22,378 bases of DNA from a virus: the IMG/VR virus record IMGVR_UViG_3300027987_000195, positions 1 through 22,378 of that record; one strand, written 5' to 3'. Position numbers and translations under genes: made by a program. The notes beneath the pieces are model-generated. The model was not told the DNA's origin. It did not search any database and was given only the letters and a program-made list of their open reading frames with translations. Position 1 is the first letter of the stretch; each line of letters opens with the position of its first letter. Below, piece by piece: positions 5,273 to 22,378 of the stretch.

Positions 5273-5481
5273 TCCCAATCTACCTCACCATCTCGGAAGT
5301 CTCGAAGCTACTCGACTGGCAGCCAAAACGGACGCGCCGTTGGCTTAAGCGGGCGAACTGCCTGGTGGAGCGAGCGGGGCGCCAGGTCACCTCAGTGGAG
5401 CGACTGAAGGCCGAGTTTCCCGAGGTCTACGACGAGATTGCCACCAGGGAGATCGACTCCCTTACCGATGGAGCAGAGTGA
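5269..5481 (+). CDS. Small helix-turn-helix protein (70 aa)
   Basis: GTG at 5269 overlaps the preceding stop as GTGA, so the two genes are translationally coupled. The sequence YLTISEVSKLLDWQPKRTRR followed by WLKRANCLVERAGRQ is the pattern of an excisionase/MerR-type winged helix: a helix-turn-helix at residues 5-27 and a short wing that ends in RQVTSVERLKAEFP. Acidic C-terminus. Probably binds DNA, perhaps together with its neighbour. Its position between a putative late regulator and the endolysin argues against a classical excisionase, and a separate excisionase candidate lies next to int. Target unknown. Confidence 0.75.
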   Translation: MIPIYLTISEVSKLLDWQPKRTRRWLKRANCLVERAGRQVTSVERLKAEFPEVYDEIATREIDSLTDGAE

Positions 5482-6251
5482 TGTATCTAGTAGACAAGCT
5501 GACGCCACTGACGCCCAAGGAAGCGTGCCGAGCATTCGCGGTCCACCTACCGCTGGACCCGCACGTACTGGCCTGCCACGTTGCCCAGAGTGCCCTCGAG
5601 ACGGGGCACTGGAAGTCGCTCCACTGGTTCAACTTCGGGAACGTGAAAGCAACGCCAAAGTGGGACGGTGATGTGACCTGCTTTGGGTGCAACGAGATCA
5701 TCAATGGCAAGGTGGTCTGGTTCCACCCTGGTCCTGAGGTGGGCTGGCCTGGGCATGACGTATGGTTGCGAAAGCATCCAACCAGCGTGTCAAATACAAC
5801 AGCGTGCAAGTGGAGGGCTTTCCCCACTGCCGAGGATGGGGTGGCCCAACAGCTTGCATTCCTCAAGAGCCGGCCTCGTTCGTGGTCTGCTGCTGCAATC
5901 GGTGACCCGGAAGGATTCGCGAGGGCACTCAAGACGGAACGATATTACACAGCAGACGTCGAGCACTACACCAAGCTGTTGAAGTCACTGTGGAACACGT
6001 ACTACTACCAGTGGTGTCTAGCTGCTGTTGACTTTGAGCAGCAGAGACGGCGCATGGAACAGCTGTCCAGTCCCGCTGGCATAGCCATTCCCGTCCTTGC
6101 GCCACCTGTCCACAAGGAAGACAACGCAGAACGCCAGGTGGTCACAGATGGACACTTGGCTCTACTGCCACTGAAGGTTGACTGGGACGCGATGGACGCA
6201 GCCAAACGCCGTGAGGTTGCTGGCTACGATGACGGGCTGACTAGCGACTAG
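5481..6251 (+). CDS. Endolysin, glucosaminidase (FlgJ/LytG-like) domain
   Basis: Peptidoglycan hydrolase that releases progeny by cutting the glycan backbone. The segment HVAQSALETGHWKS carries the conserved Glu (residue 40) of the glucosaminidase family, followed by NFGNVKATPKWDG as in the family's N-F-G-I-K stretch. Later blocks WRAFPTAEDGVAQQLAFL and ERYYTADVEHYTKLL match the substrate-groove repeats. The C-terminal about 80 residues are unrelated linker or binding sequence. No signal peptide, so release would need a holin. The previous stop overlaps both a GTG (5478) and ATG (5481); I chose ATG. Length 256 residues. Ends tail-to-tail with the next gene. Confidence 0.85.
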   Translation: MYLVDKLTPLTPKEACRAFAVHLPLDPHVLACHVAQSALETGHWKSLHWFNFGNVKATPKWDGDVTCFGCNEIINGKVVWFHPGPEVGWPGHDVWLRKHPTSVSNTTACKWRAFPTAEDGVAQQLAFLKSRPRSWSAAAIGDPEGFARALKTERYYTADVEHYTKLLKSLWNTYYYQWCLAAVDFEQQRRRMEQLSSPAGIAIPVLAPPVHKEDNAERQVVTDGHLALLPLKVDWDAMDAAKRREVAGYDDGLTSD

Positions 6252-6457
6252 AACAGGTGTGCCGCCTGAATTGCGATATCCCGAACGTCAGGATCAGGAT
6301 CGTTCACATTGACTTCTACATGGTCCATGTGCCGATAGGACGATTCAGGCTCGTCATGACGCTTCACCCACACCTCCCCAGTGACTGAGTCGAAGGAGAC
6401 GTCTACATCTACGGTGGAGTTGCCACGCGGAACTGGGACAGTTGTTACTCGATTCAT
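6248..6457 (-). CDS. Small hypothetical protein (69 aa)
   Basis: Reads opposite to the endolysin and overlaps its stop by four bases. The sequence alternates polar and hydrophobic residues in a beta-like pattern (VDVDVSFDSVTGEVWVKR, VEVNVND) and is acidic. No motif, signal or membrane segment. ATG at 6457 has only a weak ribosome site. It resembles many small phage proteins, and the amino-acid make-up looks real instead of out-of-frame. Its isolation on the minus strand between two plus genes lowers confidence. Function unknown. Confidence 0.5.
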   Translation of the reverse strand: MNRVTTVPVPRGNSTVDVDVSFDSVTGEVWVKRHDEPESSYRHMDHVEVNVNDPDPDVRDIAIQAAHLF

Positions 6458-6527: not shown

Positions 6528-6692
6528 ATGACCATCATCGAGGTAGCCACAGTGGACGGAATCTGGGGCGCAATTCTGGAGTTTGACGCGGGTGTAGAGC
6601 TCTGTTGGTACCCACGAAAGGAGGGGACGCTGGCATGGTGGGTCATGGAGGATGGTGCGATTCTAACTGTTTGCGTGGTTGGCGTCGGGTGA
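6528..6692 (+). CDS. Possible very small protein (54 aa)
   Basis: An uninterrupted frame starts at ATG 6528 and ends at TGA 6690-6692. It encodes an acidic, hydrophobic peptide that begins MTIIEVATVDGIWGAILEF and continues with WYPRKEGTLAWWVMEDGA and a Val-rich end. The composition looks like a real beta-rich protein and not random sequence. There is no clear ribosome site and no overlap with a neighbour, so this is tentative. It fills most of the gap before the lipoprotein gene. Confidence 0.35.
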   Translation: MTIIEVATVDGIWGAILEFDAGVELCWYPRKEGTLAWWVMEDGAILTVCVVGVG

Positions 6693-6743
6693 CTACATCA
6701 GCCCACCATCCATTGGCAGCCACCCCGCTGATATCCTGCGAGA

Positions 6744-7811
6744 ATGCAACCACACCGACTACTGACTGGACTGGCACTCGTCATCTGCACCAGTTGTGGC
6801 AACGATGACTGGGAGAACGCCTGCAGCGTTGAGAAGGTAGACGAAGGCGCTGAGATCACCTGCCCCAATGGCAGCACCGCCATCATCAAGGACGGGGATG
6901 ACGGCAAGGACGGAGTCAATGGCACAGACGGCCAGAATGGTGGGGGCGAGGGAGGAGCAGAGTCAGGCACCGACGACAACTGCATTGTTGTGAACGACGA
7001 TGGTGAGGTCCGCATCGAGTGCCCAGACGGAACCAATGGAGACGATGGCAAGGACGGGACCAGCTGCACCGTGGTGGATACTGATGAGGGGGCCACGATA
7101 TCGTGCACTGATGGCACCTCCGTGGACATCGCCGACGGCCAAGATGGCGATGATGGAGCCAATGGCAAGAACGGCGCCAATGGTGTTGATGGGACCGATG
7201 GCGTCAACGGAATAGATGGGGTCAACTGCACGGTCACAGACACTGCGGCAGGGGCAACGGTGACATGTGGAGGCGTGTCCGTTGCGATTGCGGATGGTGC
7301 AGATGGTGCTGACGGAACGGATGGTACAGATGGTCAAGACGGCCTGGACGGCTTGCAGGAGCCGCCGGTGTTCTCAAGTGGGAGTAGGTTGGAGCTAGTC
7401 CAGGTCGCTGGAGCCGACGGGTCAAGCTACTCAACGAGTTACTTTTGGGACACGCTATTAGGAGTGAAGTGCACACCATCGTATCACGCCGATGGGTCAA
7501 TCAGGTGCTTGCCACAATACCAACCGTACACAAGCACTTTCTTCGCAGATGACGCTTGCTCGATACCGGTGGCAATCGACGCCTATAGCGGGAGCACACC
7601 TCCCAAGTACGTAGTGCAGTCAGCTGGAACTTCCGACCTTCGTAATGAGTTGTGGGGCCAAAGTAGGGTGTTCTCCATTGGAGCAAAGAGCAGCACAGCC
7701 TACATCAACTCAAGCGGGTCATGCTTGCTAGCAACGAGCATCACGTATGACGTCTACCTAATCGGCAGCGAGGTCCCATCGAGCACGTTCGTGGAGTTCA
7801 CGCAGCAGTAG
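6744..7811 (+). CDS. Collagen-like lipoprotein with repeated C-x12-C modules (355 aa)
   Basis: Exported surface protein, probably a lipoprotein: hydrophobic N-terminus LLTGLALVICTSCGNDD with Cys15 or Cys18 as the lipid site. Four modules follow, each with two Cys exactly 13 residues apart (27/40, 80/93, 108/121, 162/175), and each followed by Gly-Asn/Gly-Asp triplets of collagen type (KDGVNGTDGQNG, DGTDGTDGQDGLDG). The C-terminal 150 residues form another domain with GSRLELV, FWDTLLGVKC, RCLPQY and FADDACSIP. As I recall, this pattern recurs in secreted proteins of Myxococcota-type bacteria. It could modify the lysogen surface or act as a virion fibre; a signal peptide favours the former. Start ATG 6744 lacks a good ribosome site. 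Confidence 0.8.
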   Translation: MQPHRLLTGLALVICTSCGNDDWENACSVEKVDEGAEITCPNGSTAIIKDGDDGKDGVNGTDGQNGGGEGGAESGTDDNCIVVNDDGEVRIECPDGTNGDDGKDGTSCTVVDTDEGATISCTDGTSVDIADGQDGDDGANGKNGANGVDGTDGVNGIDGVNCTVTDTAAGATVTCGGVSVAIADGADGADGTDGTDGQDGLDGLQEPPVFSSGSRLELVQVAGADGSSYSTSYFWDTLLGVKCTPSYHADGSIRCLPQYQPYTSTFFADDACSIPVAIDAYSGSTPPKYVVQSAGTSDLRNELWGQSRVFSIGAKSSTAYINSSGSCLLATSITYDVYLIGSEVPSSTFVEFTQQ

Positions 7812-7812
7812 T

Positions 7813-7869
7813 CCCCCGCAGCGGAGTCGAACCGCTGCTACGACCATCGGGGGTGGGGTGACTCACCCC
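7813..7869. terminator. Paired hairpins between convergent genes (possible two-way terminator)
   Basis: Directly after the lipoprotein stop lies GCAGCGG-AGTCGAA-CCGCTGC (7818-7838), a perfect 7-bp stem with a 7-base loop, enclosed by CCCCC (7813-7817) and GGGGG (7849-7853). A second perfect hairpin, GGGGTGA-C-TCACCCC (7855-7869), covers the stop codon of the leftward gene. Neither has a T-run, so if they terminate they are not classical intrinsic terminators. On the minus strand the first hairpin has the exact form of a tRNA T-arm (GGTTCGACTCC). Confidence 0.45.
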
Positions 7870-8285
7870 TCCTCACCAGGATCACGCCTTGTCCCAACAG
7901 CATGCATCATCATCGGAATCGGTTTCCGCCGCGGGAGCTTCACCTCAACCTCGAAGTCCTCGTTGATGTCCGGGCTTCCCCATACGCGGATGCATGGCTC
8001 GTTGTTCCATTTCGATGGGAACAGTGTCACCCGCTTCCCAACCCATGCGCGCACATCATCGCCAAACATGGCGCGAATGCACAGCCCGTTCGTCTTGCAG
8101 GTCACGAGCTGGAGGGGGCGCTCTCTGAACGAGATGAGCACCTTGTGTTTCTTGCCGTCTTCGCCCTCCAGTTCCTCGCGCACCACATCCGAAATTGTCA
8201 TGGTCACCTTGGCGCCCTTGAACATTCCAGCCTTTAGGAAGCGTCCAGGGTATAGGTCGTCGAACGTTGTTGGCCTGTCCACCAT
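7863..8285 (-). CDS. Conserved phage protein, probable OB-fold ssDNA-binding/recombination partner
   Basis: 140 residues. Begins with FDDLYPGRFLKAGMFKGAKV, then MTISDVVREEL, SFRERPLQLVTCKTNG and MFGDDVRAWVGKRVTLFP. From memory this pattern belongs to a widespread phage family found beside RecT/Erf or exonuclease genes and thought to bind single-stranded DNA; the beta-rich pattern fits an OB-like fold. ATG at 8285 follows the exonuclease stop after a single base, so the two are co-translated and probably act together on DNA ends. Last gene of the leftward early operon. Function is inference from context and family memory. Confidence 0.75.
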   Translation of the reverse strand: MVDRPTTFDDLYPGRFLKAGMFKGAKVTMTISDVVREELEGEDGKKHKVLISFRERPLQLVTCKTNGLCIRAMFGDDVRAWVGKRVTLFPSKWNNEPCIRVWGSPDINEDFEVEVKLPRRKPIPMMMHAVGTRRDPGEEG

Positions 8286-8286
8286 G

Positions 8287-9171
8287 TCAGAATCCTTTCA
8301 ACCCTAGATCGTCGCCATCTGCGTCATCGTCTGGCATTGCCCACCGTGGGAGCACGAGAGTCTTTGGTAGCCCGTTGCCTATCCCAGGCCACTTTCCTGC
8401 CAGCTCACACTCCTGCTTGCGTTGGAGCCATTCCCGATAGGCATCACGCCCAATATCGAGGACGTCGTCTGGAGCGATGTAGACTACGGTGTCGTGCGGT
8501 GCCTCGAACTCAGCGGCTACGATGGCGTAGCCAGGCTCAACCCCAGTGGCAGCCTTGTAGCCGTCAACGTACATTGCGGCTTGGATGTGGTAGCAATACT
8601 TCGCGACGTCGCGCTGAAAGCTCCACGTCTCCGCGCACCTTGTCCCCTTCAGGTCGACGAGATACGGGCGATCCCGGATGCTTTCGTTGAGCCAATCGAC
8701 GCGGCCGACCAACAGCGCTCCAGTCTCGATGTCGTGCCACTGTAGTGCGACCTCAGCCCGGCCGCATCCGAGGTACATCATGGCCACTTCGTCAGCGCGC
8801 ACCGATTCCGATAGCGCGATCGCAGTGCGGTAGTCGTCACGGCTGATGATGGTCTTGCCTGCATTCTCGTCGCGGAATGCCTCCCATACCTTCCCCGACC
8901 TCACAGCTTTCGTGTCCCTACCCGGCCACTTGTCTGGCATCAACACAAAGTCAGTGAGGAAGCGGCCAGGCTCGAGGACGGCGGTGTGGGAGATGTGGCC
9001 GAGGCCGGTACTGTGCGTTTGGGGGCGGGGGTGTTGCAGCCGCCAGCGGTAGTGTTTTGGCGACCTGGCCATCTCCTTCAGCGTGCTGTAGTGGTCACCT
9101 TCTAGGTCGTCGTAATCGACTGTGCCACGCTCGAGGATGCGTCCGGCTGTGGCTTCGATTGGCTTGTTCAT
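8287..9171 (-). CDS. RecE-like exonuclease (PD-(D/E)XK, DUF3799 type)
   Basis: Processive 5'-3' double-strand exonuclease expected to make 3' single strands for phage recombination. Visible core: YSTLKEMARSPKHYRW near residues 28-43 (binding helix), GHISHTAVLEP at 58-68, AEVALQW at 139-145, GRVDWL with Asp159, VDLKGT with the Asp173-x-Lys175 pair, and YHIQAAMY at 194-201. This is the full motif order of the nuclease superfamily. Length 294 is typical of the phage form. ATG 9171 overlaps the previous gene as ATGA and has GAGGT four bases upstream. No RecT or Beta annealing protein is seen, so the next gene may take that part. Confidence 0.87.
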   Translation of the reverse strand: MNKPIEATAGRILERGTVDYDDLEGDHYSTLKEMARSPKHYRWRLQHPRPQTHSTGLGHISHTAVLEPGRFLTDFVLMPDKWPGRDTKAVRSGKVWEAFRDENAGKTIISRDDYRTAIALSESVRADEVAMMYLGCGRAEVALQWHDIETGALLVGRVDWLNESIRDRPYLVDLKGTRCAETWSFQRDVAKYCYHIQAAMYVDGYKAATGVEPGYAIVAAEFEAPHDTVVYIAPDDVLDIGRDAYREWLQRKQECELAGKWPGIGNGLPKTLVLPRWAMPDDDADGDDLGLKGF

Positions 9172-20072: not shown

Positions 20073-20351
20073 ATGGCTCACGATACAGCAGATCTGGATG
20101 TACTGGACGAAGCCAAGCACATACTGTCAAAGCGGGCCGTGTCCCATGGAGGATCGAGTGCCGTGCACCAACGCGCAGCTGAGTTCTGGTCAGCAATCCT
20201 CGGAACTAGTGTGTCAGCCCATCAGGTCCAGCTTTGCATGATCGCGCTCAAGCTGGCTCGTGCTGTGGAGCGTCCAGGGAACCGTGACCACTACGTGGAC
20301 ATCGCTGGCTATGCCCAGTTGGCGTGGAGAGAGGTGGACAGTATGACTTAG
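20073..20351 (+). CDS. DUF6378-like phage protein (92 aa)
   Basis: Small helical protein frequent in phage replication regions. LDEAKHILSKRAVSHGGSSA, then AAEFWSAILG, HQVQLCMIALKLAR and HYVDIAGYAQLAWRE give the family pattern I associate with DUF6378, which some relate to MazG-like folds; the Asp-Ile-Ala-Gly-Tyr-Ala end is the most typical part. ATG 20073 is preceded by GGAGG at the right distance; TTG 20067 overlaps the helicase stop but is less likely. It ends tail-to-tail with a four-base overlap against the next gene. Last gene of the rightward operon; function unknown. Confidence 0.72.
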   Translation: MAHDTADLDVLDEAKHILSKRAVSHGGSSAVHQRAAEFWSAILGTSVSAHQVQLCMIALKLARAVERPGNRDHYVDIAGYAQLAWREVDSMT

Positions 20352-21031
20352 AAATCGACAATCAGCGATGGTTGAACCCCAAGTAGAAATGCCGGACCGA
20401 GTCCATCCACTTGACCTAGGTATGCTCCGACAACGCCTATGGCCAAGACTGTTCGCTGGGCAGCGTTTCCATCGAACCAGGCAAGACCAAATTCCGGCCC
20501 AACGAATGCTCCTGCAGTGAAGCCCATCTGACTGTCATCAACTGTCTCATCATCCACATCAATCGTAAGACCGACAAGATTCCCGCTGAGCGCGAAGTTC
20601 ATATTAGCTACAAACTGGGCGTCGGTCGGGAGTTGCCACGCCAATCCATTGTTGCCACTGACCTTCTGTAGAGACGAAGTTACTAAGGGATAGCCTACGG
20701 TCACTCCAAGGCCCACAGCCGGTCCGAATACTACCGCATTACCATCCTTGCCCCAGGCCTTGCCGATGATGAAAGACCCCGGGGTTTGAACGGAGATTAC
20801 CGGGCGGCGTGGGAGAAGAAGCCTACGACACTCTTCCTCAGCGTCACTGTTCAGATCCTCTGACACCTTACACCGCGTGCCGCTATCGTAAATCTCCACT
20901 CCAGATGGTGGTGTAGGAGCTGCTTCGTCAGGGAAAGGGGCTGACTCAGCCATCGAAGTGCACGGAACAACCAACGTGAACAGTAGTAAAGTCATTACTA
21001 TGGATTTACAGTAGGTATGTGTAGAGTTCAT
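20348..21031 (-). CDS. Exported barrel-like protein, probable lysogenic conversion gene (227 aa)
   Basis: N-terminal signal peptide: hydrophobic IVMTLLLFTLVV and likely cleavage after CTSMA (residue 28). The mature part has Gly-rich strands (FGPAVGLGVTVGYPLV, MGFTAGAFVGPEFGLAWF, VLAIGVVGAYLG) and ends in Phe (SLIVDF), as outer membrane barrels do; two Cys near residues 53 and 67. Isolated on the minus strand, GC nearer 47-50% by eye than its neighbours, with its own upstream region: the profile of a moron. It may alter the host surface or block superinfection. ATG 21031 was chosen because the signal peptide begins there; no good ribosome site. Confidence 0.7.
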   Translation of the reverse strand: MNSTHTYCKSIVMTLLLFTLVVPCTSMAESAPFPDEAAPTPPSGVEIYDSGTRCKVSEDLNSDAEEECRRLLLPRRPVISVQTPGSFIIGKAWGKDGNAVVFGPAVGLGVTVGYPLVTSSLQKVSGNNGLAWQLPTDAQFVANMNFALSGNLVGLTIDVDDETVDDSQMGFTAGAFVGPEFGLAWFDGNAAQRTVLAIGVVGAYLGQVDGLGPAFLLGVQPSLIVDF

Positions 21032-21180
21032 CGTTACTCTAGTAACATAGGCCAATAATGACTGCATCATGCGCGAGCTAATATCCAGTATTTGTGGGTG
21101 ACATTCGGCTACAGTCAAGACACTGACGCCTGGTTGTGAGGTGGACCACCTACAGCTGATGACACAGGCGAGCTCGTTGT
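21032..21180 (-). promoter_or_regulatory. AT-rich upstream region of exported protein gene
   Basis: 149 bases before the exported protein gene. AT-rich up to about 21110. An inverted repeat GTTACT-CT-AGTAAC (21033-21046) lies directly before the start codon and could be an operator or hide the ribosome site in RNA. Possible -10 boxes on the minus strand include TATGTT just upstream of it. Downstream of the coiled-coil gene stop at 21181. No RNA gene recognised. Confidence 0.4.
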
Positions 21181-21741
21181 CTATCGGGTCATAAGGCGGT
21201 TCGCCCTTGCCTCTCCCTCGTCTGGGTCACGCTGCTGTGCTGCTCGCTCCGCTGCCACAATGCGCCGCTGCTCGGCTATCCTGGCCGCCTCGAGCTCACG
21301 GTCCCGCTCGGACCTGCCCTCTGCCACGGCTTCACGCATGAGTCTGCGCAAACGGTCGTCTGTGTCCTCACGAGCCACGGTGGTGGCGACTGCCGCCGCC
21401 TGCTCCCTCGATTGCTCGGTGACCCTTTGGGTGGCCAGGTACCCACCACCAAGGACCGTTGTGGCGATGGCTGCTGCAGCGCCTAGGAGCTTGGTGGCTG
21501 TCGAGCTCATGACCTTGTGAAGCTGTCCGACGTCACCCTGTAGCTGTCCGACGTTGGTCTTCAATTCAGCCAGCTGCAAGCCATGCTCATGGGTCCTGGT
21601 GTCCAGCGTCTCCAGCATCCCTCCTAGCCGATCCACCTTGTCCAGTGCCTGCTCTGAGTTGGCTAGCGCCGTTGCTGATTGCCGACGGGCTATAGCGTTG
21701 TCAGCGCCGATTGCCCCAACGAACCCGTCATCCTGTGCCAT
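21181..21741 (-). CDS. Coiled-coil protein with one membrane helix (186 aa)
   Basis: Residues 25-80 form heptads (LAELKTNVGQLQGDVGQLHK), residues 84-103 a membrane helix (KLLGAAAAIATTVLGGGYLA), and the rest a long charged helix (RRLMREAVAEGRSERDRELE, EQRRIVAAERAAQQ). The coiled coil followed by a membrane helix recalls XhlA-type lysis proteins, but the long cytoplasmic or periplasmic tail is unlike them. ATG 21741 has GGAGG five bases upstream and overlaps the preceding gene by 14 bases. It may be a holin accessory, a spanin-like or a structural protein. Function uncertain. Confidence 0.7.
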   Translation of the reverse strand: MAQDDGFVGAIGADNAIARRQSATALANSEQALDKVDRLGGMLETLDTRTHEHGLQLAELKTNVGQLQGDVGQLHKVMSSTATKLLGAAAAIATTVLGGGYLATQRVTEQSREQAAAVATTVAREDTDDRLRRLMREAVAEGRSERDRELEAARIAEQRRIVAAERAAQQRDPDEGEARANRLMTR

Positions 21742-22081
21742 CGATGCCTCCGAGTCCCAACCTGTCGCGACGACCCTTGAGCAACGTCAGCTCCGCCTGG
21801 ATCTTGGCCACATCGCTTTCGATCTTCTCCAGCCTGCTCACCAGGCTGATGACTGTGTCAGCCATGTCCCTCACTGGCTCGAGGATGCGCCGTTCGAGCT
21901 CGAAAACAGTGGCGGCCGCGGTCTGCTGGGCGAGTGCCCCTAGGGCCGCGTTGAGCTCGTTCTCGTCTCGTATCTGGGCCAAGCTGATCCTAAGAGTTGG
22001 CTCCGATGGTGGGCCAGGAATCTCAGACTCGGGGATGTAGTGCGTTGGTGCCAGCTCTGACGGATCGGTGTCGTGAGTCAT
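21728..22081 (-). CDS. Coiled-coil hypothetical protein (117 aa)
   Basis: N-terminal 30 residues Pro/Glu-rich and loose (THYIPESEIPGPPSEP), then a helical part (DENELNAALGALAQQTAAAT) and clear heptads from about residue 65 to 105 (MADTVISLVSRLEKIESDVA, KIQAELTLLKGRRDRL). No signal or membrane segment. ATG 22081 overlaps the preceding stop as ATGA with GGAGC upstream. Probably pairs with the next coiled-coil protein through its heptads. Function unknown. Confidence 0.68.
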   Translation of the reverse strand: MTHDTDPSELAPTHYIPESEIPGPPSEPTLRISLAQIRDENELNAALGALAQQTAAATVFELERRILEPVRDMADTVISLVSRLEKIESDVAKIQAELTLLKGRRDRLGLGGIDGTG

Positions 22082-22302
22082 AGTTGCCGCTCCTGCATTG
22101 CCTGGGTGGTTGCCTTCTGGCTTGCATCTGCTGCACGTGCAGACGCCTCACCGATCGCTTGCGAACGTGCAACCTCGCGGTCATCTGCATCCGCAGCGCG
22201 GTCGAGTGCGTCCTCCGTCCCTGCAGCTACTGGAGCAACAGGGCATGGCAAGAAGTACTTGCTGATGCCTGTGATTCGCGCGAGCCATCGAAACAGGTTC
22301 AT
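22078..22302 (-). CDS. Small protein with hydrophobic N-terminus (74 aa)
   Basis: Begins MNLFRWLARITGISKYFLPC and continues PVAPVAAG, then an Ala/Asp/Arg-rich helix (EDALDRAADADDREVARSQA) with Gln-rich end. I chose ATG 22302, which has GGAG six bases upstream; ATG 22314 would add four residues but lacks a ribosome site. The N-terminus could be a weak membrane anchor. First visible gene of a three-gene leftward set, all rich in helix. Function unknown. The rest of the window (to 22378) has no gene I can support. Confidence 0.6.
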   Translation of the reverse strand: MNLFRWLARITGISKYFLPCPVAPVAAGTEDALDRAADADDREVARSQAIGEASARAADASQKATTQAMQERQL

Positions 22303-22378
22303 GGTGTTCTCCATTCAGGATGGATCGGGGGCGGCCGGGCAAGGGGCAGCCGTCCCCGTCCAATGTGTTAGGACGCTA

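Follow-up and report, generated by a model that had tools for sequence, protein, structure and literature searches.

The question raised by this locus is what a phage-borne protein with a lipoprotein-type N terminus, regularly spaced cysteine pairs, collagen-like tracts and a separate C-terminal domain is, and what it would do for the phage that encodes it. The window analyzed here, 22,378 bases of IMG/VR record IMGVR_UViG_3300027987_000195, lacks end repeats and is probably a fragment of a phage genome. Genes recognized in it encode a Mu-type portal, a large terminase, a glucosaminidase-type endolysin and an exonuclease VIII-type recombination protein, along with repressor-like proteins, a tyrosine integrase, a DNA methyltransferase and a DnaB helicase; besides the portal, no head or tail structural genes were recognized in the window. 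Because integrase, repressor-like, terminase and portal genes are present together, the phage is taken to be temperate, the setting that an earlier, sequence-only reading of this DNA had assumed.

The ORF at 6744-7811, stop codon included, encodes 355 amino acids and is a real gene, as its codon usage fits that of the other phage genes (+0.178 per codon in frame) and the other tested frames all scored negative. The protein contains 14 cysteines, at residues 15, 18, 27, 40, 80, 93, 108, 121, 162, 175, 243, 255, 272, and 327. Four pairs, 27/40, 80/93, 108/121, and 162/175, share a spacing of 13 (C-x12-C); at least four pairs at spacing 13 arose in 22 of 100,000 random placements of 14 cysteines, and at least four equal neighbor spacings, whatever their length, in 783 of 100,000. 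Each pair is followed by a Gly-x-y run, at residues 51-65, 96-107, 132-161, and 185-205, and Pfam Collagen (PF01391) matches residues 132-159 at 31.4 bits against a cut-off of 27.2. The collagen-like tracts are short, with 4 to 10 triplets, and proline is absent from their x and y positions. The order along the plus strand, with scores from an HMM of bacterial modules described below, is module 1 (Cys27-Cys40; 6819-6902; 21.7 bits), which is CFSR-like and scores 13.9 bits, below the cut-off, with the Pfam CFSR model; tract 1 (6894-6938; 5 triplets); module 2 (Cys80-Cys93; 6978-7040; 8.3 bits), the most divergent, with its spacing exact; tract 2 (7029-7064; 4 triplets); module 3 (Cys108-Cys121; 7053-7145; 34.4 bits), with a predicted three-stranded meander; tract 3 (7137-7226; 10 triplets), which carries the Pfam Collagen match; module 4 (Cys162-Cys175; 7215-7304; 19.1 bits); and tract 4 (7296-7358; 7 triplets). 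A C-terminal head with the remaining cysteines, 243, 255, 272, and 327, occupies 7377-7808 and consists of one DUF7481 unit (Pfam PF24297). Thus, the four C-x12-C modules joined by collagen-like tracts that were proposed from the letters alone are borne out by exact spacings, the Gly-x-y runs behind each module and the Pfam Collagen match, and the separate C-terminal domain proposed with them is a DUF7481 unit that scores above its Pfam cut-off.

The N terminus carries a lipoprotein-type signal peptide, MQPHRLLTGLALVICTS, followed by Cys18 (residues 1-18; 6744-6797, plus strand), with HR in the n-region, a hydrophobic core and the residues GNDD after Cys18. The lipobox, C15-T16-S17-C18, is noncanonical when compared with [LVI][ASTVI][GAS]C: positions -1, -2, and +1 fit and position -3 is a cysteine. 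Lipidation at Cys18 is therefore likely rather than certain, and the lipoprotein N terminus of the earlier reading stands as a signal peptide with a lipobox-like site. A cysteine at -3 is also found in the related lipoproteins L042, L037, L073, and L089. In M. xanthus, inner-membrane lipoproteins are marked by Lys at +2 and those of the matrix by Ala at +7 (PMC3222651). The 355-residue protein has Gly at +2 and Glu at +7 and, because it has neither sorting residue, it is predicted to be placed in the outer membrane.

The cysteine modules have relatives in bacteria. Against the HMM, which was built from 144 bacterial modules alone, the window protein scored 66.5 bits; 2000 shuffles, half of which held Gly and Cys fixed, gave no score above 15.1. 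A two-module scan of the genome collection returned the same module arrangement in a Bacteriovoracaceae lipoprotein (L023), in deltaproteobacterial proteins (L024/L026) and in Fibrobacter lipoproteins (L025/L027). With the full protein as query, 100 of 379 genomes from the phylum of L024 and L026 gave matches, and many proteins there display several "CTVxDNGDGTxTISCxDGTSVTVxDG" units behind lipoboxes. The Pfam family CFSR ("collagen-flanked surface repeat"; PF19079; cut-off 27 bits) is matched above its cut-off by L073, L062, L051, L045, and L024, and several proteins that supplied modules for the HMM reach this family. Its cut-off is not reached by the window modules, at 10.6 and 13.9 bits, or in a search of the whole record, where the best score was 6.5 bits. 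Because they fall below the cut-off, the window modules are, as judged from sequence, homologues of the bacterial CFSR-type modules in the sense of divergent relatives, not formal members. The collagen-like flanks on an exported protein that characterize CFSR are present here as Gly-x-y runs, a Pfam Collagen match and a signal-type N terminus. As in the CFSR lipoproteins (L062, L046, L051, L045, and L073), each module combines a Cys-bounded hairpin, a DGT(S) turn, a third strand and a Gly-x-y tract, and the modules are repeated behind a lipobox-like site. The window modules differ in having 12 residues between their cysteines, whereas most bacterial CFSR-type modules have 13 or 14 (among 172 modules, the gap is 13 in 96, 14 in 53 and 12 in 17). 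An AlphaFold2 model from an alignment of 29 modules, headed by module 3, predicts a three-stranded meander (mean pLDDT 73.5, about 85 in the core) with strands at fragment residues 9-14, 17-22, and 27-31. In this model Cys9 opens strand 1 and Cys22 closes the adjacent strand 2, so that a cross-strand disulfide closing the module is the natural reading of the prediction. An alignment of four modules was too diverse for a pattern search of the genome collection.

Two further groups of CFSR-bearing proteins were observed. Deltaproteobacterial multiheme cytochromes (MtrC/OmcA-like, CxxCH) often begin with a lipobox and a CFSR/collagen stalk (L024, L026/L044, L048, L049, L050, L053, L064, L065, L067, and L070), which suggests that in those cytochromes the stalk raises electron-transfer heads off the outer membrane. 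The Fibrobacter lipoproteins L025 and L027 contain up to ten CFSR-like modules and then a C-terminal histidine-phosphatase-like domain, the Pfam match of which is weak in L027.

The C-terminal head is likewise shared with bacterial lipoproteins. Pfam DUF7481 matches residues 203-291 at 27.8 bits (cut-off 26.1), and residues 212-351 align with the full DUF7481 unit profile, on which host units score up to 135 bits; identity between the head and host lipoproteins is about 30-38% across about 145 residues. An iterated search from the window C terminus defined a 140-residue unit present in one or three copies per bacterial protein, with three units in 14 ORFs and one in 20, counts that include the window protein and some duplicate loci. 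The search of host genomes for the C-terminal domain, called for in the earlier reading, found DUF7481 in 25 of the 184 genomes of one order (E below 1e-6). The host proteins mostly have a lipoprotein-type N terminus followed by a low-complexity linker that varies from an Asp-Thr run (L038) through Ser or Gly runs to a proline-rich collagen stalk (L103/L110). L103/L110 provide a host precedent for a lipid anchor, a collagen stalk and a DUF7481 head, and the phage protein resembles the DUF7481 lipoproteins of Myxococcota-like genomes in placing the head behind a lipoprotein N terminus and a stalk. However, it combines a single DUF7481 unit with CFSR-like modules, which were found in no host DUF7481 protein; among all loci fetched, only the window protein contains both. 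No relatives of this phage's genes lie near the 12 host DUF7481 loci fetched, and these loci thus look chromosomal. Neither the C-terminal domain alone nor a three-sequence DUF7481 alignment found the head in other viral contigs, and a six-head alignment was too diverse for a pattern search of the viral collection. A single-sequence model of the head reached a pLDDT of 31.8, and a structure search with that model was null. Collectively, the two halves of the protein fall into families of bacterial lipoproteins, the modules with the CFSR type and the head with DUF7481, and the earlier description of the protein as a designed surface fiber of the phage does not hold.

The phage probably infects a myxobacterium of the order Polyangiales (Myxococcota). 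Its terminase has its nearest relative, at 60% identity, in the genome G341, which belongs to the order with the 25 DUF7481-containing genomes and itself encodes three-unit DUF7481 lipoproteins. The small G341 contig with this terminase also encodes a portal that is 33% identical. Among viral contigs, the best full-length terminase match was 53%, and the 60% match of L019 covers a fragment only.

The gene is set apart from the packaging genes and oriented against the recombination genes downstream (convergent, 7863-9171). The endolysin gene (5478-6251) is upstream on the same strand. Between the two is an ORF on the minus strand (6248-6457) with coding-like codon usage, and next to it on the plus strand is a small ORF of 54 amino acids that begins MTIIEVATVDGIWGA (6528-6692; +0.30 per codon in its own frame). 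The latter ends 51 bases upstream of the lipoprotein gene and is possibly cotranscribed with it; no relatives of it were found among the fetched loci or in Pfam. No sigma-70-type promoter was found upstream of the lipoprotein gene, and such hosts may use other promoters. Two hairpins at 7818-7869 (fold z = -1.95), between the lipoprotein gene and the convergent gene at 7863-8285, form a possible bidirectional terminator; they lack a T-run and were not called in a terminator scan. The same intergenic region contains, at 7812-7845 on the minus strand, a hairpin, GCAGCGG-TTCGACT-CCGCTGC, that resembles a tRNA T-arm. Over 23 bases it matches a segment of a tRNA-Ser(CGA) gene in L121, of the same order, at 96%; the remaining weak matches lie outside any predicted tRNA. 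The hairpin may be the remnant of a tRNA, an attachment site or a chance likeness. Elsewhere in the window, the minus-strand gene at 20348-21118 looks exported, with a signal peptide and a barrel-like C terminus rich in Gly and aromatic residues. Its G+C content of 0.515, with 0.498 at third positions, is the lowest among 11 genes compared, it has no family match, and it is possibly a second cargo gene whose product would act at the outer membrane. Three small minus-strand genes at the right edge (21181-22314), the one at 21181-21741 having a coiled coil and a central membrane-like segment, are possibly lysis- or holin-related.

These data lead us to favor, with somewhat better than even confidence, the reading that gene 6744-7811 is a host-derived lipoprotein cargo gene (a "moron") by which the lysogen acquires a stalked head on its outer membrane. 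The gene arrangement supports a cargo gene, because it lies on the plus strand with the 54-residue ORF upstream, a minus-strand ORF to its left and convergent recombination genes to its right. In the proposed mechanism, the host would export the product, the modules would become oxidized, and the protein, lipidated at Cys18, would take its place in the outer membrane. The stalk would consist of four small beta units, each closed by a disulfide, in alternation with collagen-like Gly-x-y tracts, and would carry the single DUF7481 head outward. The lysogen would thereby gain a stalked surface protein of a class that its host already uses, and altered surface binding could lead to superinfection exclusion, in which other phages are kept from adsorbing or from delivering their DNA, or to adhesion. 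What the sequences show directly are the domain homologies and their order, the setting in a phage, and host lipoproteins of a corresponding build; from there, our confidence declines from export and oxidation of the modules through lipidation of Cys18, outer-membrane placement, outward display and expression in the lysogen to an effect on binding. Superinfection exclusion and adhesion are the likeliest putative roles, and display on the lysogen surface with putative effects on adhesion, predation and adsorption, as first suggested for this protein, is plausible. No anti-phage defense model matched (PADLOC). Phage lipoproteins that alter the host surface have precedents in Ltp of TP-J34 (PMC3952083) and Llp of T5 (PMC9586334). 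As with Ltp, Llp, and Cor, the window gene is phage-encoded and its product would be a lipoprotein of the host envelope; Ltp lies in a lysogeny module and blocks DNA injection, and Llp jams FhuA from the periplasm. Unlike the 355-residue protein, all three are small and have neither a collagen stalk nor DUF7481, so that the likeness is one of role, not of membership.

A closely allied possibility, which we consider appreciably less probable, is that the lysogen surface protein serves mainly host ecology, in adhesion, matrix or prey contact, rather than phage exclusion. Heads borne on CFSR-type stalks in bacteria are very different, including SRCR, receptor L, multiheme cytochrome and phosphatase-like domains, and for this reason the stalk appears to be a general display device. 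The DUF7481 head probably decides the role.

That the protein is instead part of the virion, a collagen-like tail fiber or tail tip protein with a hydrophobic N terminus that is not a signal peptide, seems quite unlikely to us. Phages do build trimeric collagen fibers, such as the EPcl proteins of E. coli prophages (PMC3368898), and the PHROGs "collagen like minor tail" and tail fiber families match the window protein. However, these matches span the module/collagen region, the C-terminal domain is unmatched in 50,697 phage records, and the same PHROG families are matched by proteins of L022 and L077 with signal-like N termini. In addition, the window protein starts with a signal peptide and a lipobox-like site, its disulfide modules would require an oxidizing compartment, both domains are those of bacterial lipoproteins, and no tail genes adjoin it, none having been recognized in the window. 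In a plain search of viral contigs with the module/collagen stretch, 12 loci (L002-L013) matched through Gly-x-y only, without the cysteine modules; these are ordinary phage fibers or other collagen-like proteins.

The remaining two alternatives are both highly improbable. Mx-alpha elements of Myxococcus, which are prophage-derived, encode SitA contact-dependent toxins, outer-membrane lipoproteins with exchangeable C termini (PMC5562445), and M. xanthus cells transfer outer-membrane lipoproteins between each other (PMC3325183); a toxin of this kind, passed among myxobacterial cells by outer-membrane exchange, would share with the window protein the lipoprotein form, an exchangeable C terminus and a prophage-like element. 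The sitB-sitA-sitI operon layout is absent, as there are no sitB or sitI neighbors, no downstream immunity gene lies on the same strand and the next gene is convergent, and the C terminus is not a nuclease or other toxin domain; it is a domain found in one or three copies on host lipoproteins. A lysis protein, either an outer-membrane spanin (o-spanin) or an accessory, is suggested by the endolysin gene upstream on the same strand and by the fact that o-spanins are outer-membrane lipoproteins, but o-spanins are far smaller than 355 residues with a host-type head, no inner-membrane spanin partner is seen beside the gene and the minus-strand ORF at 6248-6457 separates it from the endolysin gene.

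The favored reading, a host-derived surface lipoprotein carried as cargo, gains a wider frame from other viral contigs that encode CFSR-like exported proteins in unrelated gene contexts. L073 and L074 (358 and 186 kb) share a near-identical locus (7416-9230 in L073) for a 604-residue lipoprotein that contains, besides its six modules, a receptor-L-like region and a DUF7151 unit; L077 (84.7 kb), in which a terminase was confirmed, encodes a 184-residue lipoprotein with at least two modules (7902-8456); and in L022 (55.9 kb) the exported protein has 586 residues, three modules and a membrane anchor at its C terminus (6588-8348). Family tests for terminase, sheath, and T4 portal were all null in L073, L074, and L022, which are viral by IMG/VR class and by neighboring genes, the neighbors in L073 being phage-like nucleotide and RNA genes; L022 is probably a phage contig. 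Like the window gene, these genes combine a signal-like N terminus with CFSR-like modules and collagen-like tracts. Their heads differ from DUF7481, being receptor-L-like plus DUF7151 in L073, a membrane anchor in L022 and none in L077, and their contigs are larger than the window and show no apparent relation to this phage. Two other loci considered as relatives, L075 and L076, were set aside as weak matches without the cysteine modules. Among 50,697 records of cultured phages, neither the full protein nor either half found a match, a search in which low-complexity filtering may hide weak module matches. We suggest, as a speculation that is rather unlikely to be right, that the CFSR-like stalk with its collagen tracts has entered phages of predatory and social deltaproteobacteria more than once and has been combined there with different heads.

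Every part of the protein is already known as a family, and so are phage-borne surface lipoproteins. What is new is that CFSR-like modules and DUF7481 are joined in one protein, that DUF7481 occurs in a phage, and that CFSR-type exported proteins recur across unrelated phage contigs. To our knowledge, few lysogenic-conversion genes have been described for predatory or social bacteria. The present gene connects phage lysogeny with two uncharacterized families of bacterial lipoproteins, those of the CFSR-type stalks and those of the DUF7481 heads, through a joining of domains unlike any in the sampled host genomes and with the same kind of stalk in the unrelated L077 and two or three further viral contigs. 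If lysogens display the protein, it would offer a tractable handle on what DUF7481 binds and on phage-altered surfaces of predatory and social bacteria. If repeated uptake of the stalk is real, surface conversion by such proteins would be a class that keeps recurring, with a common stalk as the device and an effect set by the head, and, in myxobacteria, these outer-membrane lipoproteins could even pass to nonlysogenic kin by outer-membrane exchange.
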